Origin: Bifidobacterium pseudocatenulatum DSM 20438 = JCM 1200 = LMG 10505
GTDB taxonomy: Bacteria; Actinomycetota; Actinomycetes; Actinomycetales; Bifidobacteriaceae
Reading direction: 5' to 3'
NCBI RefSeq assembly: GCF_001025215.1
Contig: NZ_AP012330.1
Span: forward strand, 496,001-560,000
Length of the DNA: 64,000 bases
Shown here: positions 21,031 through 39,921 of the stretch, in pieces
Layout: each line of letters begins with the position of its first letter
How positions within the stretch are numbered: the first letter of the stretch is position 1
The notes under the pieces: model-generated
Database searches by the model: none
Told to the model about the DNA's origin: nothing
The model's input: the letters and a program-made list of their open reading frames with translations, nothing else
Translations under genes and position numbers: made by a program

Positions 21031-22041
21031 TCAGTCGGTCTGTTTCCAGGTCTCGACGTCGATGTGGTGTTCCGGATTGGCCTGCCATGCATCCCAAGCG
21101 GACTTCACGATGTCTTCGACGTTGTACTGTGCGTGCCAGCCCATCTCTTCGTTGATGCGCTTCGGGGAGCCGATCAGGTGCGGCGGATCGCCTGCGCGAC
21201 GGGCCATGACGGTCTCTTCGAACGGCAGGCCGGTGACCTTCTTGACCTCATCGACGATCTGACGCACGGAGGTGCCTTCGCCGGTGCCGACGTTGAAGGC
21301 GTCGTACTTGCGTTCATCGCGGTCCAGATACTTCAGGGCGGCGATGTGGGCGTCGGCCAGATCGGAGACGTGGATGTAGTCGCGCACGCAGGTGCCATCC
21401 GGAGTCGGGTAGTCGTCGCCGAAGATCGCAGGGGCCTTGCCCTTCTTCAGACGGTCGAACAGCATCGGGATGAGGTTCAGGATTGCCGGATCCTCAAGCT
21501 CGACCGGGCCGCAGCCGGCCACGTTGAAATAGCGCAGGCCGCAGAAGCGAATGCCGTACGGCTCTTCGCAGGCGCGTGCCATCCACTCGCCGAACAGCTT
21601 GGTCTGGCCGTACGGGTTGATCGGCAGCATCGGAACGACGTCTTCCGGAACCACGTCGACCGGCGGAACGCCGTAGGTGGCTGCGGAAGAGGAGAAGACG
21701 AGCTTCTTGGCGCCGGAGTCGCGCATGCCGATGAGCACGTTGAGCATGCCGTTGATGTTCTGCTGGTAGTACCACAGCGGCTTCTCAACGGATTCGCCGA
21801 CCTGCTTGCGGGCTGCGAAGTGGATGACGGATTCGACGCCTTCGGCCTTCATGATTTCGGCGAGGCGTTCGCCGGCACCCGGTGCGGCGATATCCATGCC
21901 GTACAGGCGGGAGCCTTCGATGCGGGTTGGCTTGCCGTAGCTCAGATCGTCAACGACGACGACCTGTTCGCCGGCCTGGTGAAGAGCGTGGACGACGTGA
22001 GCGCCGATGTAGCCGCACCCACCAGTGACGAGAACTGTCAT
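21031..22041 (-). CDS. galE: UDP-glucose 4-epimerase
   Basis: GalE interconverts UDP-glucose and UDP-galactose with tightly bound NAD. In bifidobacteria it serves galactose entry by the Leloir and lacto-N-biose pathways and supplies sugar nucleotides for polysaccharide. The 336-residue protein has the Rossmann motif VTGGCGYIGAHV, the catalytic Ser-Tyr-Lys set in FSSSAATYG and NPYGQTK, and the C-terminal NVGTGEGTSVRQ. The ATG at 22041 is preceded by GGAGGAAAGGA. Two palindromes lie in its long 5' leader, suggesting repressor control. Confidence 0.95.
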   Translation of the reverse strand: MTVLVTGGCGYIGAHVVHALHQAGEQVVVVDDLSYGKPTRIEGSRLYGMDIAAPGAGERLAEIMKAEGVESVIHFAARKQVGESVEKPLWYYQQNINGMLNVLIGMRDSGAKKLVFSSSAATYGVPPVDVVPEDVVPMLPINPYGQTKLFGEWMARACEEPYGIRFCGLRYFNVAGCGPVELEDPAILNLIPMLFDRLKKGKAPAIFGDDYPTPDGTCVRDYIHVSDLADAHIAALKYLDRDERKYDAFNVGTGEGTSVRQIVDEVKKVTGLPFEETVMARRAGDPPHLIGSPKRINEEMGWHAQYNVEDIVKSAWDAWQANPEHHIDVETWKQTD

Positions 22042-23541: not shown

Positions 23542-23552
23542 CCATGGCTTTG

Positions 23553-23585
23553 AAACCTCGGAAACATCCGAGGTTTCTTTGTTTT
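23553..23585 (+). terminator. Terminator of the tRNA cluster
   Basis: AAACCTCGG pairs with CCGAGGTTT around a 6-nt loop and is followed by CTTTGTTTTT. Confidence 0.88.
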
Positions 23586-23866: not shown

Positions 23867-26023
23867 ATGGAAGTGCTTCTGGTCGGCAACACCGACTTCA
23901 TTACCAAGCAGTGGATTCAGCATTCCTTTCCCCGAGACCATGTGGTGATAGCGGAACGAGAAGGCACCGTAGACGGCAATGACCGTCTCAGAATCGTCAA
24001 CATGTCTGACGCCAACACCCTTGCCGAAACTCTTACCACATACGAATTCGATCGCATCGTATTCTTTTCCGAAGGCCTCACCCCGCGAAGTGAGCGTGAC
24101 GGCGATCTCGGATATCTTCGCAGATTGCTGCACGCCATACGTAACAGATCCACGCAAATGCTGATGGTATGCGGACCGGAATCCGAATTCACCTATCCGG
24201 AAAACGCCGACGTACGTGATACCAGCAAAAGTCTGATGTCTCGAGCGTCGGAAGAACTCTGCCTGTATTACGCGCGCACCTACCGTCTGGAAGCGAAAAT
24301 CATTCGCTGTCCATACTTGTATGCACCCGAGCGCAATGGAGCAACCGCATATTTCGGCAGACTGTTCGAACAGGCATCGGCAGGGTCGATCTCATTCTGC
24401 GAACGCAAACAGCAACAGACATGCTTTCTCTGCGCCGACGATCTTGCCGAACTGATCTACCGCATGTTCGACGATTGGACCGCCGAAAGCGAAATCTTCC
24501 ATGTGCCCAACGTGTTCGACTTCACATACGGTGATTTGGCTGATGCGATCAGCGCGGCATTTCCCGGATTATCGGTGACTTTTGGCAAAGACAGACCCCA
24601 ACATTACCCAGCAGACGATCATGTGCTGCGATTGCGCTATGGCTGGTCGCCGCGATATTCGCTCAAACAGGATCTTCCCCCTGTGCTTCAGCGCTGGAAA
24701 GAAGCGCGTGCTCAGGAACAATCCAAGAAGCACCCGGTCTGGGATTTTCTACGCAACCATTCAAAACCATGGATCGCAATCGAAATCTTCATCGCGTTCA
24801 TATTGGAAGAACTGCTTCGCACCGCGGTACAAGGCAACAGCCAGTTGGGAACCGTGGATTTGCGCCTGTTTTTCGTGGTGATCGTCGGCACGATGCACGG
24901 ACTGAACGCAGGCGTGTTCGCGGCCGCGCTCGCATGTGTCGGCATGGCGTTGTCGTATGCATCGAAGGGCGCTTCATTCGCTCCGCTGTTTTACGACACG
25001 TCGAACTGGCTTGCGTTTGTGGTGTATTTCGTTGCCGGCGCAGTATGCGGGTATGTGCAGCTGCGTAATCGCGAAAACCTGCGATTCATGCGTGACGAAA
25101 ACAGTTTGCTGCGTGAACGACTTGCGTTCCTGCGTGACCTGTACCACGATGTGCTCGATGATCGTCGTATGCTGCGCGGGCAGATTATCGGCAGGCGTGA
25201 CAGTTTCGGCAAAATGTATGCGATGACACGTGAATTGGACGAAGTGCAGCCGCAAAAGCTGTATCACACGACCATTCGCATTATGCAAGACACATTGGGC
25301 GGCGATAGTTTCGGTGTTTACCGCATTGACAGCGGCGGTCGATTCGCGCGTTTGATGGCTGCGAGTCCGCAAACCGAATCCCTGTTCAGCAAGTCGGCGC
25401 TGCTTGAGAATTATGCCAACATTATTACAGCTTTGGATCATGGTGGATTGTGGGTGAACCGCAATTTCGAACCGGACCTTCCGATGTATGCGGCAGGCGT
25501 GCATGCCGATGGCAAGCTGGCCGTGGTGATTGTGCTTGCCAAAGCGCAGCCCGACCAAATGAATCTGTACTTCCAGAACCTGTTCACCATCATGTGCGGC
25601 TTGGTGGAATCCGCGATGGTGCGTGCGTTCGACTATGAGAATGTGGCGCGTCAGGCGATGCTGGTGCCGGGCACCGAATTCCTGAACACTCGGGCGTTCC
25701 TGCCCAAAGTGCTTGCCGCCAACGAACTCAAGCACGACCATATGGGCGATCACCTGCTGCTGCGTGTGGATGATGCTTGGCAAGACAATGGCAGCCGTCT
25801 CATGGGGGCCATTCGTCAGACGGACGAGGCGGGTGTACTGCAAGACGGCAACGTGTATGTGTTGATGAACCAGGCCGGCAAGCATGAGCTGCCTATCATC
25901 AACAAGCGTTTGGCCCAAGCTGGATTGCATGTGACACGCGTTTCCGGGCAAGAGGAAGACGCGCTGCTGGATGAGGCTTCGGAACAAGTGGCCGCCGAAT
26001 CGCACGAAGGCGGCACGGCATGA
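23867..26023 (+). CDS. pelD: PelD-like c-di-GMP receptor with N-terminal SDR domain
   Basis: This 718-residue membrane protein has four parts. Residues 1-285 are an SDR/epimerase-like fold in which the usual GxxGxxG and Tyr-xxx-Lys are not recognisable (VLLVGNTDFITK; SLMSRASEE). Residues 300-400 hold membrane helices, about 455-600 a GAF domain, and about 605-700 a degenerate GGDEF domain. The last keeps an RxxD inhibitory site (RQTD, 650-653) exactly five residues before the vestigial signature (QDGNV). That helices-GAF-degenerate GGDEF order with an intact RxxD is the plan of Pseudomonas PelD, which binds c-di-GMP to switch on Pel synthesis. Gram-positive PelD proteins are known with a fused SDR. 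The stop overlaps the next start (ATGA). Confidence 0.82.
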   Translation: MEVLLVGNTDFITKQWIQHSFPRDHVVIAEREGTVDGNDRLRIVNMSDANTLAETLTTYEFDRIVFFSEGLTPRSERDGDLGYLRRLLHAIRNRSTQMLMVCGPESEFTYPENADVRDTSKSLMSRASEELCLYYARTYRLEAKIIRCPYLYAPERNGATAYFGRLFEQASAGSISFCERKQQQTCFLCADDLAELIYRMFDDWTAESEIFHVPNVFDFTYGDLADAISAAFPGLSVTFGKDRPQHYPADDHVLRLRYGWSPRYSLKQDLPPVLQRWKEARAQEQSKKHPVWDFLRNHSKPWIAIEIFIAFILEELLRTAVQGNSQLGTVDLRLFFVVIVGTMHGLNAGVFAAALACVGMALSYASKGASFAPLFYDTSNWLAFVVYFVAGAVCGYVQLRNRENLRFMRDENSLLRERLAFLRDLYHDVLDDRRMLRGQIIGRRDSFGKMYAMTRELDEVQPQKLYHTTIRIMQDTLGGDSFGVYRIDSGGRFARLMAASPQTESLFSKSALLENYANIITALDHGGLWVNRNFEPDLPMYAAGVHADGKLAVVIVLAKAQPDQMNLYFQNLFTIMCGLVESAMVRAFDYENVARQAMLVPGTEFLNTRAFLPKVLAANELKHDHMGDHLLLRVDDAWQDNGSRLMGAIRQTDEAGVLQDGNVYVLMNQAGKHELPIINKRLAQAGLHVTRVSGQEEDALLDEASEQVAAESHEGGTA

Positions 26024-26934
26024 ACACAACGGTAGTGACGATGCTGCTTATCGTCATACATGTGCTGGTATGCGTGCTGATGTGCGTATTGTCTCGTTTT
26101 GGCGTGCTTCGTGTGGAAGGGCGTCTGCTTCCTTTTATGCTGTTGGTGCCGCTGTGGGGGCCGTTATGCGTGCTCTTGCTGCATGTGCGTACGCTGATTC
26201 GTGCGGGCGAGCATACGGCTCCAGATCTCGAACAGATGCGCGTGGACGATGAGGAACGTCGAAGCATTCTCGTTGAGGAACGAGCCGATTTCGCCAATAC
26301 CGTGCCGCTGGAAGAGGCGTTGATCGTCAACGATTCGAGTCAGCGTCGCAGTCTGGTGATGTCCATTCTCAACGACAATCCCAGCCATTATATCGATGTG
26401 CTGTCGCAGGCCCGACTGAATGAGGATGTGGAGGTCGTGCATTACGCGGCTACCGCCATGGCACAGATCAGTGCCAAGGAAGATCTTGCATTGCAGCGCT
26501 GCCGCAACGATTATCTGCAGCATCGAAATTCCGAAACGATGTTGGAACGCTATTGCGATGCGCTGGAACGATATATCAATTCCGGTATTGCGCAAGGATA
26601 CGCATTGCAGTTGCAGAAGCAGCGATATGCCGAAGTATTGCAGGAACGACTTCGCCAACATGGCGATTATTACGTTGCGTGCCGTCTTGCGCAAATGCAA
26701 ATCGATCTTGGACTCTTTGATGATGCCGCGCACACCATTGACGGCGCTATGGAACAGTGGCCGGATCAAGGCGATGTATGGCTGATGCGTCTACGACTCG
26801 ATGCCGCACGCAATGATGGCGATGCGTTGCGCCACACTGTTCAGCAGATCGAAAGCAAGCATATTTATCTCGGTGGCCAAGGAAGACGTGTGCTGCGGTT
26901 CTGGACCGGAACCAAGGAGGCTGAACGCGCATGA
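26020..26934 (+). CDS. pelE: PelE-like membrane protein with TPR-like helices
   Basis: The 304-residue protein begins with two membrane helices (about residues 4-25 and 36-58) and continues as a soluble, all-helical domain resembling tetratricopeptide repeats (for example ACRLAQMQIDLGLFDDAAHT). Size and layout match PelE, the inner-membrane partner of PelD. Sequence alone would not identify it; the call rests on position directly after the PelD-like gene and before pelA- and pelF-like genes. Its start overlaps the preceding stop and its stop overlaps the next start (ATGA at both ends), indicating translational coupling. Confidence 0.7.
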   Translation: MNTTVVTMLLIVIHVLVCVLMCVLSRFGVLRVEGRLLPFMLLVPLWGPLCVLLLHVRTLIRAGEHTAPDLEQMRVDDEERRSILVEERADFANTVPLEEALIVNDSSQRRSLVMSILNDNPSHYIDVLSQARLNEDVEVVHYAATAMAQISAKEDLALQRCRNDYLQHRNSETMLERYCDALERYINSGIAQGYALQLQKQRYAEVLQERLRQHGDYYVACRLAQMQIDLGLFDDAAHTIDGAMEQWPDQGDVWLMRLRLDAARNDGDALRHTVQQIESKHIYLGGQGRRVLRFWTGTKEAERA

Positions 26935-28811
26935 TCAGAGGATTCCTGTCAGACGTGTTGGCCAAGTGGAAACGATTCCGCTGGCAAGGTTTGGTCAAAG
27001 TGTGGGCCGTGTTCATGGCCATCGCATTGGTGTTGCTGGTGGAAAGCTTGGGCGTGCATTACGGTGTCACGCGGTTCGACATCACGTATTTGGATCGAAA
27101 CAAAGCCATTCCTGCAGCCAATGCCATCGCTGGCGAAAAAGCTACGAATCTGTTGGTGGTCGACAGTTCGCAGGAGGGCGTCAGCGATGCCGAAGCCATG
27201 CTCGACCAGATTCTGCTTGATATGAAAGTCCCCACCACTACGGTTGACGTGGCTGACGAAAACGCTGAATTTCCAGCGTTGACTCACTACAGCACCATAG
27301 TGGTGGCCATGCCTAATCTCGACCGTCTGGGCGAGCATGTGCTGCAAATCATGCAATGGGCCAAAAAAGGCGGAGGAGTCATGTTTGCCATGACTCCCGA
27401 AAAAACCGGCTATTTGGATGTGATCGGCCCGCAGATCGGCATTGAATCGTCCGCATACGAATATGTGCTGACTAAGGGCATTACACCCTCCAAGGATTTC
27501 ATGTTGGGCGGCGGCCAGACATACACGTTCAGCGATCCGTTTGAATCGTCGCTGAGTGTCGCATTGCATGATCGCGCACAGGTCAAGGCCGTCAGCAGTA
27601 ATGGGCGCACACCGTTGATTTGGAGCACGTTCGTGAATTCAGGTTCGGCGGTGGTGTGCAATATCGGTATTTACGGCAAGGTGCTTCGAGGATTTTACGC
27701 TTCGGCGTTCAGCCTGCTCGGTTCTGCCACGGCCTATCCGGTGATCAACAGCGCGGCGTTCTACTTGGATGATTTTCCCTCTCCGGTACCGTCAGGCAAT
27801 GGCAAATACATCAAACGTGACTACAACATGAGTATTGCTGAATTCTATTCTCAAGTATGGTGGCCGGATTTGGTGCGTCTTGCGGAACGGTACGGTATTC
27901 GTTTCACCGGTGTGATGATTGAGAATTACGGCGATGACACCAAGGATGATCCGGTACGGCAGACGGACGGCGCACAATTCGAGTATTACGGAGGATTGCT
28001 GCTGCGGCAAAACGGCGAAATCGGATATCACGGGTACAACCATCAGCCGTTGGTGTTGCCGAATACGGATTACGGTAAGGAATACGCGTATGTGCAGTGG
28101 CCGAATCGCAAAGCCATCGTCGATTCGTTGAACGAACTGATCGCATTCCAGAAAGACGTATTGCCTGCCGCAACATCGTCGGTATACGTGCCGCCGTCGA
28201 ATATCCTCTCCCAAGAAGGACGGAAGATCATAGGCGAGGATGTGTCGCAGATTCGCGCCATCGCCAGTACGTATATGCCTTCCGACAGTTCCTTGACGTA
28301 CGTGCAGGAGTTCGGTGTTGCGGCCGATGGCGTGGTGGAGGCTCCACGTATCGTGTCCGGCGGCATGGTGGGTGACATGTACATGCGTCTTGCCGCGGTT
28401 TCCGAACTGAACATGCACTATGTGAGCACGCACTTCATGCATCCCGACGATTTGCTTGATGAAGATCGTGGAGCGAAAGAAGGATGGAAGAAGTACTACC
28501 AGGGATTGGAAAACTATCTTGACTGGCTGGAATCGTCGGCACCGTCCATTCGTATGCGGACAGGCACGGAATGTGCCGCAGCCATCCAACGTTTTTCGGG
28601 ATTGACCGTTTCGATGGAAACGTCCGACGATAGTTGGGATCTGAAACTTGGCAACCTCACCGATCAAGGGTGGCTCATGTTCCGTGCCAACAATGGCACG
28701 CCTGGCAGGGTTCGTGGCGGAAGCCTCACCAAGCTGACCGGCAACTTGTATCTGCTCAAAGCCACGAACGCCACGGTTCATATCGAACGCAAGACTGGGG
28801 GAGAGGCATGA
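26931..28811 (+). CDS. pelA: Membrane-anchored polysaccharide deacetylase (PelA deacetylase-type)
   Basis: This 626-residue protein has one N-terminal membrane helix (about residues 24-42) and an extracytoplasmic region. The middle resembles PelA and DUF2194 proteins, and a NodB-like deacetylase core is visible: AFYLDDFPSPVPSG with the Asp pair (D280, D281) and GYHGYNHQP with the metal-binding H367 and H371. In Pseudomonas, PelA partly deacetylates the N-acetylgalactosamine-rich polymer and also has a glycoside hydrolase domain. No hydrolase domain is apparent here, as expected for the Gram-positive PelA type. Overlaps of 4 bp join it to both neighbours. Deacetylation would give a cationic polymer. 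Confidence 0.82.
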   Translation: MIRGFLSDVLAKWKRFRWQGLVKVWAVFMAIALVLLVESLGVHYGVTRFDITYLDRNKAIPAANAIAGEKATNLLVVDSSQEGVSDAEAMLDQILLDMKVPTTTVDVADENAEFPALTHYSTIVVAMPNLDRLGEHVLQIMQWAKKGGGVMFAMTPEKTGYLDVIGPQIGIESSAYEYVLTKGITPSKDFMLGGGQTYTFSDPFESSLSVALHDRAQVKAVSSNGRTPLIWSTFVNSGSAVVCNIGIYGKVLRGFYASAFSLLGSATAYPVINSAAFYLDDFPSPVPSGNGKYIKRDYNMSIAEFYSQVWWPDLVRLAERYGIRFTGVMIENYGDDTKDDPVRQTDGAQFEYYGGLLLRQNGEIGYHGYNHQPLVLPNTDYGKEYAYVQWPNRKAIVDSLNELIAFQKDVLPAATSSVYVPPSNILSQEGRKIIGEDVSQIRAIASTYMPSDSSLTYVQEFGVAADGVVEAPRIVSGGMVGDMYMRLAAVSELNMHYVSTHFMHPDDLLDEDRGAKEGWKKYYQGLENYLDWLESSAPSIRMRTGTECAAAIQRFSGLTVSMETSDDSWDLKLGNLTDQGWLMFRANNGTPGRVRGGSLTKLTGNLYLLKATNATVHIERKTGGEA

Positions 28812-30244
28812 GAATCTGCCTGGTTTTGGAAGGATGCTACCCGTACGTGCATGGTGGCGTGTCCACGTGGATGCACAGTTATATCGAAGCGATGAAAGAG
28901 CACGAGTTCGTATTGTGGGTGATCGGCGCCAAAGCCGAAGACCGCGGCAAATTCGTATATGACCTGCCCGACAATGTGGTGGAAGTGCATGAGGTGTTCC
29001 TCGACGACGCCTTGCGTCTGAGCGGTGAACGCGCGCAAGTGTCGTTCACCGAAGAGGAATTGCGGTCATTGCGCGAACTGGTGAATCTTGGCAGCCCGGA
29101 TTGGGATGTGCTGTTCAACCTGTTCCACACCAGAGGCGTGCATCCGCTGTCGTTCCTGCAAAGCCGTGAATTCATCGACTTGTTTACGCAAATCTGCATG
29201 GAAGAATATCCGTATGTGGCCTATGCCGACGCTTTCCATACCGTGCGCTCCATGTTGCTGCCGGTGTTGTACTTGATGGGCTGCGAAGTGCCGGAAGCGC
29301 AGATCTACCATGCGATTTCCACTGGATATGGCGGATTGTTGGCTTGTTTTGGGGGGGGGGGTATCAACCATGCGCCGGTATTGCTTACGGAACATGGCAT
29401 TTATACGCGTGAACGCGAAGAGGAAATCATTTCCGCCGAATGGGTGTCGCCAGCGTTCCGGCCGCGTTGGATCCGCTTCTTCTACATGCTTTCGGAACAG
29501 ATCTACCATCGTGCGTGGCGCATCACCAGCTTGTTCGGTCGTGCCCGTCTTATCCAAATTGGCATGGGTGCGCCCGCCGATGCCTGCCAAGTGATTCCCA
29601 ATGGCATTCAATACGAACGTTTCTGCGATATTCCCCTGAAGCCCGACGACGGTTGGGTTGATATCGGCGCGGTGGTGCGCATGGCGCCCATCAAAGATGT
29701 GAAAACCCTGATTCACGCGTTCCATGAGCTTTCCTCTCGCGTTGACAATGTGCGCTTGCATATTCTCGGCGGTGTTGACGATCAGGAGTATGCCGACGAA
29801 TGCTATGAGCTTGTGGAACAGTTGGGTGTGCGCAATCTTGAGTTCACCGGCCGTGTGAACGTGGTCGAATACATGCGCAAGCTTGATTTCACCGTGTTGA
29901 CCAGCATTTCCGAAGGCCAGCCGCTGTCGGTGCTGGAATCGTTCGCAGCCGCACGCCCCTGCGTGACCACTGACGTCGGCTGCTGCCGTGAGCTTTTGGA
30001 AGGCGAGGAAGGCGACGATTTCGGCACGGCAGGCTTCTACGTGCCCCCGATGTACCGCGAGGGCCTGAGCCGAGCCATGGAACGCATGTGTTCCAGTCGC
30101 ACGCTGCGTGAGACCATGGGGCAGATTGGCCGTAACCGTGTGAACGCCTATTACCGGCATGAGCGCATGCTTGACGATTATCGCAAGCTGTATAGCGATA
30201 CCGCGGATCAGTTCGGATTGAATCAGTTCGGATTGGAGCGCTGA
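28808..30244 (+). CDS. pelF: PelF-type family 4 glycosyltransferase
   Basis: PelF is the cytoplasmic polymerase of Pel polysaccharide, using UDP-N-acetylhexosamine. The 478-residue protein begins with LVLEGCYPYVHGGVSTWMH, the family hallmark, and has LLTEHGIYTREREEE in the centre and a GT4 C-terminal domain with SISEGQPLSVLESFAAARP. The 11-G run at 29351-29361 encodes Gly182-Gly185, right before the LLTEHGIY motif. Losing one G leads to a stop at 29592-29594, and gaining one to a stop at 29410-29412, so the gene is in the on state here. Its start overlaps the pelA stop (ATGA) and pelG begins 1 nt after its stop. Confidence 0.92.
   Translation: MRICLVLEGCYPYVHGGVSTWMHSYIEAMKEHEFVLWVIGAKAEDRGKFVYDLPDNVVEVHEVFLDDALRLSGERAQVSFTEEELRSLRELVNLGSPDWDVLFNLFHTRGVHPLSFLQSREFIDLFTQICMEEYPYVAYADAFHTVRSMLLPVLYLMGCEVPEAQIYHAISTGYGGLLACFGGGGINHAPVLLTEHGIYTREREEEIISAEWVSPAFRPRWIRFFYMLSEQIYHRAWRITSLFGRARLIQIGMGAPADACQVIPNGIQYERFCDIPLKPDDGWVDIGAVVRMAPIKDVKTLIHAFHELSSRVDNVRLHILGGVDDQEYADECYELVEQLGVRNLEFTGRVNVVEYMRKLDFTVLTSISEGQPLSVLESFAAARPCVTTDVGCCRELLEGEEGDDFGTAGFYVPPMYREGLSRAMERMCSSRTLRETMGQIGRNRVNAYYRHERMLDDYRKLYSDTADQFGLNQFGLER
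29351..29361 (+). repeat. Homopolymer of 11 G inside pelF
   Basis: Eleven consecutive G residues lie in frame in pelF. Tracts of this length are prone to slipped-strand mispairing. Changes of plus or minus one base would shift the frame and truncate the glycosyltransferase. Confidence 0.95.
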
Positions 30245-30245
30245 T

Positions 30246-31790
30246 ATGGCCGGTATTGGATTTGAACTGAAGAAACTGTTCCACCGTAGAGGCTTGATGG
30301 CGATGCTGCGAGCCTACGGCTATGCCGGCGTGATTTGCGCTGGTCCGATGCTGTTGGGTGTACTCCTGCAGTTCGGCGTGCTGATCGTGAGCAGCTGGTG
30401 GCAGGTGGGCCGCCCCGACCGCGATCTGCTCGTATGCATGATCACCTACACGCTGCTTGCCTCGTTGGTGTTGACGAGTTTTCTGTCGATGCCGGTCACC
30501 CGTTTTCTGGCGGATATGTTGTTTGATCACGATGAGAAGATGATTCTGCCGTCGTTCTGGGGTTCTACTGGCATCATGCTGGTGGTGGGCGCGGTGTTGT
30601 ACACGGTTTTCCTGCTGTTTTCCGGTGCCACGTTGATGCAGGGCGCGTTGTGTTTGTGGCTGTTTCTTGAAATGATCGTCAACTGGAATGCGATGAGCTA
30701 TTTGACGGCCATCAAGGATTACAAAAGCATTCTGTATTCTTTCGTGGCTGCGGTGTTGGTGGCGTTCGTTACGTCATGCGTGTTGCTTGCGTTGGCCTGC
30801 CCTCCTGTGGAGTCGCTGTTGTTCGCAGTGGTGCTTGGCTATGGTGTGATGCTGGTGTGGGATGTGCTCTTGTTGCATCGTTATTTTCCGCAAAGTCGTA
30901 AGCATCCGTGGCTGTTTTTGCAGTGGGTCGATCAGTTTCTGCCGTTGGCGTTGACCGGATTGCTGACCACCATCGGCCTGTTCGCCCATTTGGTGATCAC
31001 ATGGTGCGGTCCGCTCGGCATCAAGGTGAAGGGCCTGTTTTATGGCGCGCCATATTACGATGTGCCCGCCATGCTGGCGTTTTTGACGATTCTGATCACC
31101 ACGGTGAATTTTGTGGTGTCGGTGGAGGTCAATTTCTACCCAACATATCGGTCGTATTACAGTCTGTTGAATGATGGAGGCACGGTCAAAGACATTACCG
31201 TTGCCGAAAACGAAATGTTGGCTGTGCTCAATCGAGAATTGCATTACACGGCGTTGAAGCAATTGTTGGTGACCGCTGCCGTGATTTCATTGGAAAAAAC
31301 AGTGCTGAACGCGCTTCCTTTAGGATTCAGCGATGTGATGCACGGATATTTCCGTGTGCTCTGCGTGGGGTATGCCCTTTATGCGGTCGGCAACACCGTG
31401 ATGCTGATTCTGCTGTATTTTACCGATTATTCCGGTGCATTGACGGCGTCGGCATTGTTTGCGGGTTCGACGGTTGTGTTCACAGTAATCGGACAGTTCT
31501 TCACTACGTCGCTGTTCGGTTTCGGTTTTCTGATGGGGGCATCGCTGTTCGCCATATATGCGACATTCCGGCTCGCCTCATACACCGACAATCTGCCATA
31601 CCGAGTGCTGGGGCAGCAGCCGATTGTGGCGCAAACGAAACGTGGACGTTTCACCGAACTGGGCATACTGCTTGAACATGGCGAACAGCGGGTCGACCAA
31701 TCATTGCATCGCTCAGGGCATGCACGGTCTTCTGACAAGGCGAATATTGCAGAAACGGATGTCATAATCGGGAGGAATCGTAAATCATGA
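30246..31790 (+). CDS. pelG: PelG-type polysaccharide transporter
   Basis: This 514-residue membrane protein has about 12 hydrophobic helices and begins AGIGFELKKLFHRRG, the characteristic start of PelG. PelG belongs to the MOP superfamily near Wzx flippases and is thought to pass the growing Pel chain across the membrane. The start lies 1 nt after the pelF stop and the stop overlaps the cotH-like gene by 4 bp. A hydrophilic tail of about 55 residues (from about 460) is longer than I expect for the family. With PelD, PelE and PelF it would form the membrane synthase complex. Confidence 0.88.
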   Translation: MAGIGFELKKLFHRRGLMAMLRAYGYAGVICAGPMLLGVLLQFGVLIVSSWWQVGRPDRDLLVCMITYTLLASLVLTSFLSMPVTRFLADMLFDHDEKMILPSFWGSTGIMLVVGAVLYTVFLLFSGATLMQGALCLWLFLEMIVNWNAMSYLTAIKDYKSILYSFVAAVLVAFVTSCVLLALACPPVESLLFAVVLGYGVMLVWDVLLLHRYFPQSRKHPWLFLQWVDQFLPLALTGLLTTIGLFAHLVITWCGPLGIKVKGLFYGAPYYDVPAMLAFLTILITTVNFVVSVEVNFYPTYRSYYSLLNDGGTVKDITVAENEMLAVLNRELHYTALKQLLVTAAVISLEKTVLNALPLGFSDVMHGYFRVLCVGYALYAVGNTVMLILLYFTDYSGALTASALFAGSTVVFTVIGQFFTTSLFGFGFLMGASLFAIYATFRLASYTDNLPYRVLGQQPIVAQTKRGRFTELGILLEHGEQRVDQSLHRSGHARSSDKANIAETDVIIGRNRKS

Positions 31791-33601
31791 CATGGTGGAA
31801 CCGACGCAACACAAAAGCCATTACCATGCTTGTCAAGCAAATAGCGGCATTGACGGCAATGCTGACGGTGCTTTCCTGCGCCGGATGTGCGACTTCGTCA
31901 CCCAACGATAATGAACAATCGCAATCATCGGATTCGTCACAGACGCATGAGCAAGTCAAGAAAAGCGCTGAACAAAGCATCGACGGCGCACACTTGCGCG
32001 ACAACGAATCGTTATACAAGGTGTATGACGACAGCGGTGTCGAAACCATGTATTTGACGGTATCGCGCGGTAATTCGTCGGAAGGCACCGACCATAGCTG
32101 GAGCGAAATCAACCAGTATTCCGTTGATGACTATGCGGCCATGGGCGTTGACCGCTACAAGGTCAATGGTTTGCTGCAGGTCGGCGACGAACAAGGACCG
32201 GTTTCCGGGGAGCTTGGTTTTGGTGAAAGCGCGCCGAACGCCACCGTGCAGATACGTGGCCAGTCATCGAGTAAAAACGAGCAGAAGAACTACAAGATCG
32301 AGTTGAAAAGCGGCAAAGGCAAGTGGCGTGGGCAGCGTACCATCGCATTGAACAAGCATATGGGCGAAGGTCTGCGTTTCCGTAACAAAATGGCGTACGA
32401 TCTCATCAAAGGCATCGACCAGATGATGGGACTGCGCACGCAATTCGTGCACTTGTACGTGAAAGACGAGACCAGCGGATCGGATTCCTTCGACGATTAC
32501 GGTCTGTACACGCAAGTCGAACAGCTCAACAAAACCGCATTGCAGGTGCACGGACTCGATAAAAACGGACAGCTGTACAAAGTCAATTATTTCGAATTCT
32601 ATCGAGACGAAGACGTGATCAAACTCGCCGATGATCCTGACTACGATCAAGCGAAATTCGAAGAAAAACTGGAAATCAAAGGCGACAACGACCATACCAA
32701 ACTGATCGCCATGCTGAACGATCTCAATGATTATTCAGTGCCGATGGGCGAAATCCTCGGCAAATATTTCGATACCGAAAATCTCGCATATTGGATGGCA
32801 TTCCAATTGCTGACCGGCAATATCGATACGCAAAGCCGCAATATGTACCTGTATAGTCCCACGAATTCGGATACGTTTTACCTGCTCGACTGGGATAACG
32901 ATGGTATGCTCATGCGCAAGGAATACGAGATCAGGCAACGTTCCGAGGGCCAAAGCTGGGAGAACGGTGTCAGCAACTATTGGGGCAACATACTGTTCCG
33001 ACGTTGTCTGCAAACCAAGTCGTTCCGAACCGCGCTCGGCAAGGCCGTGAAAGACGAATACAAGTATATGAGCGCCGATCGCATCAATTCCATGGTGCGG
33101 CGGTACCGTTCCATCGTTGAACCATACGTGCGGAAGATGCCCGACTGCATGCATGAGCCTCTGACGTCAAGCCAATACGACACGGTGGCAAACCAATTGC
33201 ATAGCGAAATCGAACAGAACTACCAGACGTACCGAACCGGGTTCAATAAGCCCATGCCGTTCTATATCGGCAAGCCGACTCCTACCAACGGCAAGCTCAA
33301 ACTCAGCTGGGATGTCTCCTATGATTTCAACGATGAGGATCTGCGCTATAGCGTTACCGTGGCCAAGGATTACGAAGGCAAAGACGTGGTGTTCACACAG
33401 AGCGACCTCGTATTGCCGGAAGCCGTGATGGATATGCCTGGTGAAGGCCAGTACTTCATCAAGGTGAGCGTGCGCAATGCATCAGGCGAGACGCAGGACG
33501 CGTTTGACTACTACGTCACCGACGGCAACAAGGTCTACGGCACCAAGTGTTTCTATGTGAAAGCCGACGGCAGCATTGTGGAGGATGCCAATGTGCAGTG
33601 A
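31787..33601 (+). CDS. CotH-like lipoprotein
   Basis: The 604-residue protein has an N-terminal lipoprotein signal (LTVLSCAGCATS, two possible lipobox cysteines), a Ser-rich linker, and a CotH-kinase-like domain. Family features visible are NATVQIRGQSSSKNEQKNY, YGLYTQVEQLNK and the acidic FYLLDWDNDG. Bacillus CotH is an atypical kinase that phosphorylates spore-coat proteins. Secreted CotH proteins near polysaccharide and VTC/DUF4956 genes have no settled role. A C-terminal fibronectin-like stretch (about 490-590) follows. Being extracellular, it could modify or anchor the polymer. The start overlaps pelG by 4 bp. Confidence 0.85.
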   Translation: MTWWNRRNTKAITMLVKQIAALTAMLTVLSCAGCATSSPNDNEQSQSSDSSQTHEQVKKSAEQSIDGAHLRDNESLYKVYDDSGVETMYLTVSRGNSSEGTDHSWSEINQYSVDDYAAMGVDRYKVNGLLQVGDEQGPVSGELGFGESAPNATVQIRGQSSSKNEQKNYKIELKSGKGKWRGQRTIALNKHMGEGLRFRNKMAYDLIKGIDQMMGLRTQFVHLYVKDETSGSDSFDDYGLYTQVEQLNKTALQVHGLDKNGQLYKVNYFEFYRDEDVIKLADDPDYDQAKFEEKLEIKGDNDHTKLIAMLNDLNDYSVPMGEILGKYFDTENLAYWMAFQLLTGNIDTQSRNMYLYSPTNSDTFYLLDWDNDGMLMRKEYEIRQRSEGQSWENGVSNYWGNILFRRCLQTKSFRTALGKAVKDEYKYMSADRINSMVRRYRSIVEPYVRKMPDCMHEPLTSSQYDTVANQLHSEIEQNYQTYRTGFNKPMPFYIGKPTPTNGKLKLSWDVSYDFNDEDLRYSVTVAKDYEGKDVVFTQSDLVLPEAVMDMPGEGQYFIKVSVRNASGETQDAFDYYVTDGNKVYGTKCFYVKADGSIVEDANVQ

Positions 33602-34415
33602 TGGTGGCAATCGCGGAACGTCGCTGCTGCAACGTATCAAACATCGCGTCGGCGAGGAATTATCCGTTCCACCGCGCACAGCCAAGGAACGGTTCCGTCA
33701 TGAGCTCAAATATCTGATCTCATACGCGCAAAAAGCCGACTTGAACGTGCGTATGGCGCCGCTGCTTGGCCTCGACAAGCATGCGAAAAACGGCGGCTAT
33801 ATGATTCGCAGCCTGTATTTCGACGATTATTGGAACACCGCATATCAGGAAAAAGTCGACGGTGTGCTGCTGCGTAGGAAATACCGTATTCGCATCTACG
33901 ATTACAGCGATCGTGTGATCAAACTGGAACGCAAACGCAAAAGCGACAGTTGGATCTACAAGGAGGATGCACCGCTCACGCACGAGCAGTTCGACCGTAT
34001 TCTTGCCGGCGATTATGAATTTCTGCGTGACAGCGAGTATCAGTTGTGCCGCGAGTTTTATGTGGAATGCATGTGCAATGTGATGCGCCCTCGCGTGATC
34101 GTCGATTATGAGCGCGAACCGTGGATTCTTGACGCCGGTACCGTGCGCGTCACCTTCGATATGAACGTGCGTGCGGCGGTTGGAGGATTCGATGTTTTCG
34201 ACTCCACACTGCCGGTACTGCCCGTGCTTGAGCCGGGAAAACTGGTGATGGAGGTCAAATTCACCGAATTCCTGCCGCAAGTGGTGCGTGATCTGCTGCC
34301 CGGCAAGGCGCAGGAGTTGACATCGGCTTCGAAATACGTGCTCTGTTATGACAAAGCCTCGTATTTGCGGGGATTCGGCTACTGGCAGGAAGGTTGGAGC
34401 GTGCCGAGCCTGTAA
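33591..34415 (+). CDS. VTC-domain protein (polyphosphate polymerase-like)
   Basis: The 274-residue cytoplasmic protein has the VTC domain, a triphosphate-tunnel fold that in yeast Vtc4 makes polyphosphate. Visible features are FRHELKYLIS at the N-terminus, SLYFDDYWNTAY, RRKYRIRIYDYSDRVIKLER lining the tunnel with basic residues, and VMEVKFTEFLP at the end. I chose the ATG at 33591 because GGAGG lies 6 nt upstream; ATG 33585 is an alternative. It overlaps the cotH-like gene by 11 bp. VTC, DUF4956 and CotH genes commonly travel together in bacteria, with unknown joint function. Confidence 0.85.
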   Translation: MCSDGGNRGTSLLQRIKHRVGEELSVPPRTAKERFRHELKYLISYAQKADLNVRMAPLLGLDKHAKNGGYMIRSLYFDDYWNTAYQEKVDGVLLRRKYRIRIYDYSDRVIKLERKRKSDSWIYKEDAPLTHEQFDRILAGDYEFLRDSEYQLCREFYVECMCNVMRPRVIVDYEREPWILDAGTVRVTFDMNVRAAVGGFDVFDSTLPVLPVLEPGKLVMEVKFTEFLPQVVRDLLPGKAQELTSASKYVLCYDKASYLRGFGYWQEGWSVPSL

Positions 34416-34504
34416 AGCCAAGTCTGTAACCAGCTGGCATGTTGACTGGCATTCCAGCAAAAACAAACGTTACGAATCAAGGAAGCAGGAGAGAAAGAAA
34501 CCAT

Positions 34505-35170
34505 ATGAGTGTCAATGACATGATCAAAAAGTCGGTGCTGAAATCCTTCGGCCAATACAATGTGCCCAAAATGGCGCTGGCGTTGCTGGTGGCGTTGATC
34601 GTCGGCATCGTCATTTACTGCGTGTACCGCCGTTTCTACACGGGTGTGGTGTATTCGCGCAGTTTTGCCGTTACGTTGGTGGGCATGTGCGTGCTCACCT
34701 GCATGGTCACGCTGGCCATCAGTACGAATATTGTGATTTCGCTTGGTATGGTCGGTGCATTATCGATTGTGCGCTACCGTACCGCGGTCAAGGATCCGAT
34801 GGATCTGTTGTATTTGTTCTGGGCGATCACGTCTGGTATTGCGGCGGGCGCCGGCATGTATGTGCTGGTGATTGTTGCCGGATTGGTGATGATCGGCATG
34901 TTGGCGCTGTTCTACTCGCGTCAAGACAAGGGGCGCGTGTACATTGCGGTGATCCACTATGTGGGCGATGTAGTGGGAGATGAGATCACGCGCGCGTTCG
35001 GACGCACCAAATTCTTCGTCAAATCCAAAACCATGCGTGGCGAACGCACGGAAATGGCGGTTGAAGTATTCTGTGATGATAAGGACATGACGTTCGCGGA
35101 ACGCGTTCGCGCCATTGAGGGTGTCGAAGACGTGACGCTGATACAGTACAACGGTGAGTATCATGGGTAA
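34505..35170 (+). CDS. DUF4956 membrane protein
   Basis: The 221-residue protein has four or so membrane helices in its first 140 residues (ALALLVALIVGIVIYCVY, then FAVTLVGMCVLTCMVTLAI and others) and a cytoplasmic C-terminal domain of about 80 residues. The segment ISLGMVGALSIVRYRTAVKD is characteristic of DUF4956, a family usually encoded next to VTC-domain proteins. I chose the ATG at 34505 because AGGAG lies upstream, although the gap of about 13 nt is long. The 89-nt gap from the VTC gene is the only clear break within the operon and holds no obvious promoter or terminator. Confidence 0.82.
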   Translation: MSVNDMIKKSVLKSFGQYNVPKMALALLVALIVGIVIYCVYRRFYTGVVYSRSFAVTLVGMCVLTCMVTLAISTNIVISLGMVGALSIVRYRTAVKDPMDLLYLFWAITSGIAAGAGMYVLVIVAGLVMIGMLALFYSRQDKGRVYIAVIHYVGDVVGDEITRAFGRTKFFVKSKTMRGERTEMAVEVFCDDKDMTFAERVRAIEGVEDVTLIQYNGEYHG

Positions 35171-37400
35171 TCAATTCGATGTTGCCGCAGGCGCGCGGCT
35201 GGAATCCACGGGCAGGGCGCCCAGCAACGACGAAATCGTACCCAGATTCTCTCTTGACGACATCAACCAGGCGTTTGACAACAACGAATTCTGCTTCTAC
35301 CTGCAACCCAAATGCAATGCTGAAACCGGCGCAATCGTGGGTGCGGAGGCGTTGGTGCGTTGGAATCATCCGGAATATGGCTTGGTGTCTCCCGGCGAAT
35401 TCATTCCTCTGCTTGAACGTGAGTCAATGGTCACGCGGTTCGATTTGTTCATCTGGCGTTCCGTGTGTGAAATGCTGTCGCGTTGGGATGGGGAGGGGCG
35501 CAATCTGGTGCCGGTGTCCGTCAACGTGTCGATGACGGATATCGAGGCGATCGATGTGGCGCGAGTGCTTGGCGACCTGCTCGATCGGTTCAGCATCGAT
35601 GCTCGCCTGCTGCAGGTGGAGATCACAGAAAGTGCGATCGCACATAACATGGATGTGGTCGAAGAGACCATTCGGGACCTGCATGCGCGAGGCATTGCCG
35701 TGCTGATGGACGATTTTGGGTCGGCGTATTCGTCACTCAACATGTTGAAGGACATCAACGTCGATGCCATCAAACTCGACATGAAATTCGTTGACCTGAA
35801 TGCTGACAATGCGGCGAAAGGTTTGAAAATCATCGAATCCGTGATCGACATGGCCTACCAGCTGAGACTGTCGATCATTGCGGAGGGTGCGCAGACCGCC
35901 GAACAGGTGAGCAAGCTGCGTGAGCTGGGATGCATGTACATCCAAGGATATTATTTCTACCGTCCGCTCACTGTGGGAAAGATGGAGGATTTGCTGGAAC
36001 ACCGCCCGGATGACCAGCATTTCTGGAATATCTCCAAAGATCTGATGCATCGCGACTACCGCATGTCGACGAACGGCCGCAGCATGCTCGAATCGTCGTC
36101 ATTGTCGGCGCATATTTTTGAAATCCTTAACAAGGGCGTTGCGGAACTGTCCCGACTGAATCTCATCACGGGAGAATATCGCACCATCAAACGCGATCCG
36201 AAACTTCCGGACGTGTATGCGGATGATTTTCATGATTTCTGCCATGCATTGGTTTCAAAACGGATCATTCATCCAGATGATGCCGGAGAATTCCTGAAAC
36301 ACACGCGATTGTCTGATTTGCGCGACCAACTATTCAGTAAGAAAAAATCGGAATTCACGTATTTTAGAAGCGAGGTCGAGGCGAAAACCAGCGTGATCGC
36401 ATTCGGTATGCTGGTACCCCCTGATTGCAGCGAGGCCAATCCGTGGGCCGTGGTGCTGATCGGATTCGACCTGTCGCTCGACCTAATCGCCAAGAACATG
36501 AAGGAAATCTATCGGCAGGACTCCTTGACGGGATTGCTCAACCGCAATGCATACGACAGCGATGTGGAGCAGCTGCGGAGCGCCGACATCGGGGCGGTGG
36601 TGTGCGTGTATGCGGATATGATCGGCCTGCACGAGGTGAACAACCATCTCGGGCATAAGCAGGGCAACCGCATGTTGTGTGAGTTCGCGGACGCGGCGCG
36701 CGCGTTCTTCGGCGATGACCGGTTGTATCGCATCGGCGGCGACGAATTCGTGATAATCAGTTCCGCGCATACGGAAGCGCAGACACGCAAGCAGCTGAAC
36801 TACATGCGTGAGCGCTTGCATACGCAAGGCTGCGAGATATCAGTGGGCGTAGCGTCGAGCGAGTCGACTTCCGATCTGCCGAAAATCGTCGAACAGGCCG
36901 AAAACGAGATGCGCCGCGAAAAGAAGGAATACTACGTGCGAGGCGGCAGCAAACGCCAGCTGCGCGGGCTCAACAAAAAACTTGAGGACATTCTGGTGCG
37001 TAATCAGGATATGGAATCGTTGCTGCGGCATTTGAACGGACGCTATTCAATCGCATGCATGGTGAATCTGCGTACTGACTCACAGCGTGCGATCATGGTG
37101 CCCGACTATTTCCAGAAGATGCTTGACGCGCATGACGGTTCGTTCAAAAGCGCGCTGCATGACTATTGCGAACGATTGGTGGCGCCGTTCTGCAAAGACA
37201 GTTTCTCCCTGCTTATGGATTACGACTTCATTCATGCCCGCGTCGAGTCGGTCGGCGTGTTGCAGTACGGGTACACGCGAAACGACGGAGAGAAGTTCCT
37301 GCTTACGATTTTCGCCGATCGACGTTCCAAAGACGAGACCATGTGGGTGTTCTCCAAGGATGATCTGCCGCAGGTCGAGCTGGAATTATTCGAGTCATAA
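35163..37400 (+). CDS. EAL-GGDEF cyclic-di-GMP enzyme
   Basis: The 745-residue cytoplasmic protein has an N-terminal EAL phosphodiesterase domain (about 30-280), a PAS-like middle, a GGDEF diguanylate cyclase domain (about 450-570) and an unassigned C-terminal domain. This is the reverse of the common GGDEF-EAL order. All EAL catalytic residues seem present: E62 (EALVRW), N121, E153, D183/D184 (DDFG), K204, E241 and Q261. The cyclase signature GGDEF (525-529) is intact, but the inhibitory RxxD site is missing (FGDD at 516-519). It overlaps DUF4956 by 8 bp and ends the operon, so it probably sets the c-di-GMP level read by the PelD-like protein. Direction of net activity is unknown. Confidence 0.92.
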   Translation: MGNQFDVAAGARLESTGRAPSNDEIVPRFSLDDINQAFDNNEFCFYLQPKCNAETGAIVGAEALVRWNHPEYGLVSPGEFIPLLERESMVTRFDLFIWRSVCEMLSRWDGEGRNLVPVSVNVSMTDIEAIDVARVLGDLLDRFSIDARLLQVEITESAIAHNMDVVEETIRDLHARGIAVLMDDFGSAYSSLNMLKDINVDAIKLDMKFVDLNADNAAKGLKIIESVIDMAYQLRLSIIAEGAQTAEQVSKLRELGCMYIQGYYFYRPLTVGKMEDLLEHRPDDQHFWNISKDLMHRDYRMSTNGRSMLESSSLSAHIFEILNKGVAELSRLNLITGEYRTIKRDPKLPDVYADDFHDFCHALVSKRIIHPDDAGEFLKHTRLSDLRDQLFSKKKSEFTYFRSEVEAKTSVIAFGMLVPPDCSEANPWAVVLIGFDLSLDLIAKNMKEIYRQDSLTGLLNRNAYDSDVEQLRSADIGAVVCVYADMIGLHEVNNHLGHKQGNRMLCEFADAARAFFGDDRLYRIGGDEFVIISSAHTEAQTRKQLNYMRERLHTQGCEISVGVASSESTSDLPKIVEQAENEMRREKKEYYVRGGSKRQLRGLNKKLEDILVRNQDMESLLRHLNGRYSIACMVNLRTDSQRAIMVPDYFQKMLDAHDGSFKSALHDYCERLVAPFCKDSFSLLMDYDFIHARVESVGVLQYGYTRNDGEKFLLTIFADRRSKDETMWVFSKDDLPQVELELFES

Positions 37401-37450
37401 GGCCGTATTGTCTGGTTTTATGCGTTTTTGTGTGATGCGTTCGCATATTT

Positions 37451-38943: not shown

Positions 38944-39867
38944 TTACTCGTGCTTTTCGCTCCACTCCTCATCGGTGGGAGTGTCATCGTACCATTCGCG
39001 GCCTTCCTGCTCGGCCAATTCCATCTGCTCGTTGATCCACGCCGCCTCCGCAGGATTGATATCGGCGGTGTCAAGCACCTTCTGCCATACCGGATACAGC
39101 AGATGCATCACCGGATATAGCGCGGTGAGCAGAATCTCCGGCTTATGCTTGCGCGAATGCTGTGGATGCGCGTCGAACGTGTTCTTGAAACGACGCATGT
39201 AATTGTTGAACGACGTGAGCGACGTGTCCATACGGCGGGCGCTGATGCCGGCGATCATACGCGGGCAGTACACGGTTTTCAGATCCTTGCCCAGCAGATG
39301 CAGCGAAATATCGATATCCTCATGCATCACATCGGCCTTGTCTCGGCACACTTCGTCAGAAATTTCGCGCCAAGCTGAAGCGCGGACCGCCATATTCGAG
39401 CCAAACAGCAACGGCTGGCCGCCATCGGCCTTGTAAATACGCTTGCGTGTGGAATTATCCCCACGCAAACCAAAATGGCGGCTCGGCAGATCGTAATACA
39501 TCACCGGACCAGTGGCACCCATGGCCTCCGGGTCCTCAGTGAAAATGCCGGACACCACTTCGACCCAATCCGGGCGAATCATGCAATCGGCGTCGAAACG
39601 GCCCAGAATGTCGCCGGTGGCGTGGTTCAAACCATAATCGCGCGTCGGAATCAGCCCCTGCTCCTCATCCTGATGCAGCAGACGGATGGGTGCTTCCGGG
39701 TGGTCTTTGATGAACTGCTCCACCATGGCCACCGTCGAATCGGTGGAACGATTGTCGACAACGATCACTTCATGGGGCATCACGGTCTGCCTAGTGGCAT
39801 TCAACAGGCAATCGTTGATACGCTCCTCTTCATTCCAAGCGGGGATGACAATTGAAACGTTCAGCAT
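38944..39867 (-). CDS. Family 2 glycosyltransferase
   Basis: The 307-residue enzyme has a GT-A fold with VSIVIPAWNEEERI at the N-terminus, VVDNRSTDSTV, and the metal-binding FDADCM (DxD). A hydrophobic stretch near residues 245-265 may touch the membrane, but there are no clear transmembrane helices. The closest groups transfer sugars to lipids or polysaccharides; the acceptor is unknown. I chose the ATG at 39867 because the minus-strand -10 TATTGT lies 7 nt before it; a GTG three codons earlier is the alternative. It shares a short bidirectional promoter region with the AI-2E-family gene. Confidence 0.85.
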   Translation of the reverse strand: MLNVSIVIPAWNEEERINDCLLNATRQTVMPHEVIVVDNRSTDSTVAMVEQFIKDHPEAPIRLLHQDEEQGLIPTRDYGLNHATGDILGRFDADCMIRPDWVEVVSGIFTEDPEAMGATGPVMYYDLPSRHFGLRGDNSTRKRIYKADGGQPLLFGSNMAVRASAWREISDEVCRDKADVMHEDIDISLHLLGKDLKTVYCPRMIAGISARRMDTSLTSFNNYMRRFKNTFDAHPQHSRKHKPEILLTALYPVMHLLYPVWQKVLDTADINPAEAAWINEQMELAEQEGREWYDDTPTDEEWSEKHE

Positions 39868-39921
39868 AACTACCACAATAGCTCAGCCTGTACACGACGC
39901 CTATCGCTACAATAGGGAGCC
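39868..39921. promoter_or_regulatory. Divergent promoter between glycosyltransferase and AI-2E-family genes
   Basis: This 54-bp gap holds two outward-facing -10 hexamers: TATTGT (minus strand, 39875-39880) 7 nt before the glycosyltransferase ATG, and TACAAT (plus strand, 39908-39913) 8 nt before the other ATG. Both genes appear leaderless. Confidence 0.5.

Follow-up and report, generated by a model that had tools for sequence, protein, structure and literature searches.

In the window, by which we mean the whole 64,000-nucleotide stretch of DNA analyzed here, nine open reading frames lie in a row on the + strand between positions 23,867 and 37,400, and by their coordinates they mostly overlap: with the starts used, six of the eight junctions are overlaps and the remaining two are gaps of 1 and 23 bp. 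Sequence evidence gives their order as pelD-pelE-pelADA-pelF-pelG-cotH-VTC-DUF4956-EAL-GGDEF. This is the run of consecutive, mostly overlapping genes that the original prediction had described, and it is confirmed by the reading frames together with Pfam and NCBIfam models, the matches to DUF2194, DUF3492/PelF, PelG, CotH, VTC, DUF4956, EAL and GGDEF all exceeding curated cut-offs. Below, G000 denotes the genome holding the window, G001, G008 and other such numbers the further Bifidobacterium genomes compared, and L-numbers individual extracted loci.

The operon is preceded by a methyltransferase gene (trmB below) and by genes for tRNA-Glu, tRNA-Asp and tRNA-Phe; downstream of it comes a gene resembling lactaldehyde reductase, which we label fucO. 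A weak terminator-like hairpin on the + strand follows tRNA-Phe upstream of the operon (23,552-23,577), and another possible one, also weak and on the + strand, lies at the operon end (37,396-37,422); such sites are weak as a class, with 18 found against 15.4 expected by chance, and the promoter scan was uninformative (6 found against 11.5 expected). Between positions 22,000 and 39,000 only tRNAs reached the gathering score, with no c-di-GMP riboswitch upstream of the operon, and a search for the c-di-GMP-I riboswitch, run without a positive control, was negative in all seven genomes of a set comprising the six operon genomes and G019. Just past fucO, at 38,944-42,683, two GT2 glycosyltransferase genes flank an AI-2E family transporter gene. 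A galE-like gene on the minus strand (21,031-22,041; our name for a Pfam Epimerase match) was rejected as part of the operon and is not counted as pel-specific because the pel-less G011 has the same gene in the same neighborhood.

The Pel core and the accessory trio

PelD (23,867-26,023; 718 aa) has no family model of its own in Pfam or NCBIfam. Its N-terminus matches the Pfam Epimerase (SDR) model with 30 bits, DUF4118 is matched below threshold, and the protein can be described as a degenerate epimerase domain with a transmembrane region and putative GAF and degenerate GGDEF domains, the last two assigned by analogy with PelD proteins. In alignments of an analyst-chosen subset of the surveyed pel loci, the GxxGxxG and YxxxK motifs of an active SDR epimerase are missing from 31 of 32 PelD proteins, including that of the window; the domain is described as inactive in streptococci, clostridia and actinobacteria (PMC7112168). 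One PelD from a Clostridia MAG (L090:951-3182) has both the glycine motif and YxxxK, alone among the 32 aligned. At the other end of the protein, R650xxD653 and R681 are all present in 34 of 34 aligned C-termini, eight of these from PelD without an epimerase match, and in the full-length alignment R650 and D653 are found in 32 of 32 rows and R681 in 31 of 32. The equivalent B. cereus residues, R363, D366 and R395, are required for c-di-GMP binding and biofilm (PMC7112168). This conservation supports PelD as a predicted c-di-GMP receptor. A profile of the C-terminus searched against solved structures gave no match to P. aeruginosa PelD and only weak GGDEF ones (best E 0.005). PelD of four relatives (L026, L027, L029 and L030) is 735 aa long as against 718, with the extra residues near the C-terminus (window 25,970-26,023).

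PelE (26,020-26,934; 304 aa) likewise has no family model of its own in Pfam or NCBIfam, TPR_14 being matched only below threshold, and its profile finds TPR/HAT proteins. Its AlphaFold model (pLDDT 76, pTM 0.55) is helical throughout, with a confident stretch at about residues 150-290, and on reading the sequence the N-terminal helices look membrane-spanning. On this model, PelE looks like a set of N-terminal membrane-like helices joined to a TPR-like solenoid. The PelD and PelE assignments rest on the synteny of the five core genes, the c-di-GMP residues of PelD and the TPR-like PelE model. In G020, pelE aligns in two frames (L029:3477-4389), reflecting a frameshift or a sequencing error, and this copy may be broken.

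The remaining three core products fall in the Pel families to which the original prediction had assigned them. PelADA (26,931-28,811; 626 aa), a polysaccharide de-N-acetylase, matches DUF2194 (Pfam) with 627 bits, and a glycoside hydrolase domain was not found in it; it matches 9ZAU, named as the structure of B. cereus PelADA in PMC13254593, with E 1.2e-55. That paper names eight residues with catalytic, metal-binding or activating roles, and all eight are kept: by our mapping of the numbering, with a chain offset of 25, D280, D281, H367, H371, P422, R473, H504 and D507 correspond to D262, D263, H350, H354, P405, R458, H488 and D491 of B. cereus. PelF (28,808-30,244; 478 aa, with the ATG at 28,808 chosen over a longer TTG reading frame) is a GT4 glycosyltransferase scoring 323 bits against the NCBIfam PelF equivalog (cut-off 100) and 273 bits against DUF3492 (Pfam). 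PelG (30,246-31,790; 514 aa), a membrane transporter, scores 454 bits against PF16933 (Pfam). Among the features of a Gram-positive pel locus, the operon shows the five core genes in order, the CE residues without a hydrolase domain, a GT4 PelF and PF16933.

The next three genes encode a CotH-like kinase (31,787-33,601; 604 aa; PF08757 269 bits, 5jd9 CotH E 5.4e-8), whose N-terminus resembles a lipoprotein signal by eye; a polyphosphate-polymerase-like VTC-domain protein (33,576-34,415; 279 aa, start codon unsure; PF09359 112 bits), for which no solved relative was found by sequence; and a DUF4956 membrane protein (34,439-35,170; 243 aa; PF16316 41 bits, cut-off 30.6). We surveyed pel loci among the best 80 of 558 relatives, some of them cut by contig ends and only one of them from Bifidobacterium, the B. 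reuteri fragment L035. Among these 80, the five core genes occur in 69, the core with the trio in 54, an epimerase domain in 45, a GGDEF match in 8 and an EAL match in 4 (one weak, at the locus edge). The trio itself is complete at 57 of the 80 loci, Paenibacillus, Brevibacillus, Chloroflexi and Sphaerochaetaceae being among its bearers, and the nine genes do not include a DUF4832 gene. The earlier view of the operon as an unusually complete module has to be corrected accordingly. The DUF4832 gene occupies the position of EAL-GGDEF in streptococci and clostridia (PMC7112168), and the DUF4832 protein of S. intermedius has hydrolase activity and disperses aggregates that depend on Pel (PMC12345266). 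In the seven-genome set, DUF4832 was matched in none (the control genomes gave nothing, and a separate positive control gave 2 of 2), and Glyco_hydro_114 was matched in none, with positive controls.

c-di-GMP enzymes across Bifidobacterium

The last gene of the operon (35,154-37,400) encodes an EAL-linker-GGDEF enzyme of 748 aa from a GTG, or 745 aa from the ATG at 35,163, matching EAL with 210 bits and GGDEF with 62 bits (Pfam). EALVR, EITE, MDDFGS, AEG and GGDEF are kept in six of six operon enzymes; we take the EAL, DDFG, AEG and GGDEF motifs to be the metal and catalytic motifs of the phosphodiesterase and cyclase. The I-site RxxD before GGDEF, which mediates product inhibition and is common but not required, is absent from all six, with FGDD or FDDD at that place. 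The intact active-site motifs support the operon-borne protein as a predicted bifunctional enzyme.

The survey of the locus across bifidobacterial genomes that accompanied the original prediction as a proposal finds the whole operon in 6 of 112 (G000, G001, G015, G020, G038 and G041). Across these 112 genomes, PelG is matched in 8 at E<=0.001 (7 over the cut-off; the G102 match, at 18.8 bits, lies below it and was dropped), GGDEF in 13 and EAL in 11, and in a family-level search of 189 genomes from 16 genera PelG exceeds the cut-off in seven, all Bifidobacterium. An intact EAL motif is confined to the six operon enzymes, so that intact EAL occurs in 6 of 6 operon genomes and 0 of 106 others (Fisher p 4e-10, from a table entered by hand), an association that is partly trivial because the gene is itself an operon member and the genomes share ancestry. 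The six operon enzymes carry an intact GGDEF or GGDEY, as do an unlinked cyclase present in G000, G001, G020, G038, G041 and G019 and one G080 protein of the GGDEF-EAL type, whose EAL half is degenerate. The unlinked protein of G000 (L031:4703-5989; 428 aa) bears, by eye, RYGGDEF and an RxxD I-site, and is likely to be a dedicated cyclase. In the other GGDEF-EAL proteins (of G000, G008, G014, G020, G038, G041, G046 and G100, with a fragment in G006), the sites are degenerate in every case where the protein includes the region. This degenerate-site family, represented by L032:3548-6004 and L115-L123, also occurs in pel-less genomes, and is possibly a c-di-GMP receptor or a relic.

G015 has a single GGDEF and a single EAL match, both in the operon gene; lacking any other GGDEF match, any PelD ligand made in the cell would come from the operon enzyme. 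As for other components, PilZ receptors gave no match in the one genome searched and HD-GYP phosphodiesterases (PF13487) none in the seven-genome set, with positive controls in both cases.

Transfer, loss and a probably exchanged enzyme gene

The operon lies between trmB and fucO in G000, G001, G020, G038 and G041. We tentatively take G000 to be B. pseudocatenulatum, G001 B. adolescentis, G015 B. breve, G019 B. catenulatum and G020 B. kashiwanohense. The identity of G015 is probable, and it fits the pel locus tags Bbr_0044-0048 of B. breve UCC2003 (PMC10832533). In G015, trmB and fucO are close together with no pel between them, and the operon stands elsewhere, after a trxB-like gene and before two ATPase-like genes followed by a PEP-carboxylase-like gene (names from translations). 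Its pel genes share 93-99% DNA identity with those of G020, G038 and G041. The yardstick is two genes only, trmB at 70-71% and fucO at 87.5-88%. This argues for transfer rather than common descent, and the pattern reads as movement of the operon between G015 and the distant species group of G020, G038 and G041.

At the operon site of G019, the start of pelD is fused to the end of EAL-GGDEF (L149:1742-2516; G019:C1 at about 470,240-471,015), the stretches either side of this scar being 95.5-97.6% identical to G020, G038 and G041. The sequence reads as loss of the operon by a single deletion; G019 retains the unlinked cyclase. In G067 (B. reuteri), there is an operon fragment with no GGDEF or EAL match: a 3 kb segment of DSM 23975 contig 4 (L028:1021-4065) holding the end of pelF, pelG and the start of cotH, 98.3% identical to the window, with an ISL3-type transposase gene next to it where the contig ends. 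It reads as either a recent capture or an assembly chimera.

The EAL-GGDEF protein of the window is only 57% identical to the copies of G020, G038, G041 and G015, as against 87-97% for the other eight proteins, and the summed-branch tree distance between G000 and G038 is about 0.9 changes per site for EAL-GGDEF as against about 0.06 for PelA+F+G. The best reading of these sequences is that the enzyme gene alone has been exchanged in G000 by recombination. We consider it somewhat unlikely that the gene is instead native, has seen no exchange and has accelerated in a single lineage. The gene tree, which leaves the branching of G000 unsettled, weakly keeps its EAL-GGDEF with its relatives (support 53/22), as that explanation would have it. 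Against it, the divergence has edges at about 35.1 and 37.5 kb: compared with G038, DNA identity drops from about 90% through 79% to 56% around 35.08-35.24 kb and is back to 90% at 37.56 kb, so that flanks of about 90% identity on both sides enclose a gene of 57-73%. Moreover, in the other four close genomes EAL-GGDEF diverges about like pelD (91-98% vs 92-93%), and the motifs of the G000 enzyme are intact. The G019 scar holds an EAL-GGDEF end of the G038 type. As to a donor for the divergent gene, none was found among the best 120 of 7979 protein matches, those 120 all being 99-100% identical.

A probable Pel pathway under c-di-GMP and its known counterparts

Taken together, the window very probably holds a Gram-positive Pel operon whose products make Pel, gated by c-di-GMP through PelD, with the messenger set by the EAL-GGDEF enzyme; what is extrapolated here from B. 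cereus and S. intermedius is the polymer with its sugar, the gating and the direction in which the enzyme acts. PelF and PelG, with PelE, would polymerize UDP-GalNAc and pass the chain across the membrane, and PelADA would strip some acetyl groups outside to yield a cationic GalN/GalNAc polymer. PelD would act as a post-translational gate, with c-di-GMP at R650/D653/R681 of the degenerate GGDEF domain switching synthesis on. The bifunctional enzyme would set c-di-GMP for the operon, helped in G000 by the one unlinked cyclase, and CotH and the DUF4956 protein would adjust how much polymer is made and how the cells aggregate. Streptococci, S. intermedius among them, make Pel with a PelD that has no degenerate GGDEF domain, so c-di-GMP control does not follow from the core genes by themselves (PMC7112168; PMC12345266).

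Sequence does not reveal the substrate of PelF, and PMC7112168 questions whether some variant loci, including that of Roseburia, are truly Pel; the operon might accordingly reuse Pel genes with another sugar donor to make a different polymer, built on another hexosamine or resembling a teichoic acid. We regard this as very unlikely, given that PelF scores above the PelF equivalog cut-off, that PelADA retains the residues of an enzyme with demonstrated deacetylase activity on alpha-1,4-GalNAc oligomers (PMC13254593) and that the nine genes include no further sugar-pathway gene. A less improbable, but still unlikely, alternative is an intact operon with vestigial c-di-GMP control, in which EAL-GGDEF serves as a receptor or scaffold, or is limited to degrading c-di-GMP. 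The much stronger match to EAL than to GGDEF and the missing I-site point that way. However, the checked metal and catalytic motifs hold in every operon enzyme, the c-di-GMP residues of PelD are invariant in the aligned C-termini, and in G015 a ligand made in the cell would need the operon enzyme. Of the original prediction, the Gram-positive Pel operon with a predicted c-di-GMP receptor in PelD and an operon-borne EAL-GGDEF enzyme of intact motifs is supported; its standing as an unusual discovery does not, the architecture being in PMC7112168.

Bifidobacteria are major commensals of the infant gut and are used as probiotics, and their adhesion and community formation are poorly known. For the gut bifidobacteria, we tentatively propose a joint reading, which we hold as possible rather than probable: c-di-GMP signaling may for the most part belong to the Pel operon as its own accessory, with synthase, receptor and bifunctional enzyme moving and vanishing as one package; the enzyme gene might be swappable alone, so that the switch is re-tuned to a new signal and the synthase stays; a B. 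breve-like network might come down to a single enzyme with a single receptor; and the missing dispersal hydrolase might be replaced by control of synthesis. A G015-type genome with a single c-di-GMP enzyme would offer a simple setting for work on a minimal network. The transfer, the loss and the probable allele exchange imply that the trait varies between close species, making strain-by-strain typing advisable. The possible one-enzyme network, the transfer, the loss scar and the probably exchanged switch are the parts worth following.

The locus is of a known kind, and its gene layout is already published: the bifidobacterial pel operons of PMC7112168, found in 40 of 40 B. breve genomes, have the same pelDEADAFG with cotH, a polyphosphate polymerase, DUF4956, a DGC/PDE and an inactive PelD epimerase, the available text giving no architectural difference from the window. 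Allele exchange, transfer, the scar and a genus-wide c-di-GMP census are absent from that available text, and a search of openly licensed literature by titles and abstract openings found no paper that deals with bifidobacterial pel transfer, surveys c-di-GMP across the genus or describes the divergent enzyme gene. Computation adds here PelD residue conservation, that census, the transfer, the scar and the divergent enzyme allele; like the gene identities and the distribution, transfer and loss are read from sequence. The pel operon of B. breve UCC2003 is up-regulated when the megaplasmid is present (PMC10832533), and c-di-GMP has been measured in supernatants of B. breve-containing biofilms in a paper whose available text lacks the word pel (PMC12089032); in the openly licensed literature, we found no test of the Pel/c-di-GMP mechanism in Bifidobacterium.

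Beyond the genus, pelDEADAFG of Bacillus cereus ATCC 10987 shares the five core genes and the key residues of PelADA and PelD with the window. Most bacilli, unlike actinobacteria, have a P. aeruginosa-like PelD without an epimerase domain, and B. cereus pel is controlled by CdgF/CdgE from outside the pelDEADAFG genes (PMC7112168), whereas the window's enzyme is operon-borne. S. intermedius pel with SIR_1594-1591 shares the core, CotH, the polyphosphate polymerase, a gene at the DUF4956 position and an epimerase-PelD (L067); in contrast, the degenerate GGDEF domain is missing from streptococcal PelD, and a glycoside hydrolase takes the place of EAL-GGDEF as fourth accessory gene (PMC12345266). 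In S. intermedius, a GalNAc-rich polymer requires every gene of pelDEADAFG, and its amount changes in mutants of SIR_1594 (CotH) and of SIR_1592, the DUF4956 gene by position (a name not used in the available text) (PMC12345266). Among the best 80 of 558 relatives, the closest full locus outside the genus, in Faecalibacterium sp. I4-3-84 (L036; PelF 78%, PelG 66%), has the trio but, unlike the window, a DUF4832 gene after DUF4956 and no EAL or GGDEF match. In an Oscillospiraceae MAG (L079), c-di-GMP genes directly follow DUF4956 as they do in the window, but there EAL and GGDEF are separate reading frames.
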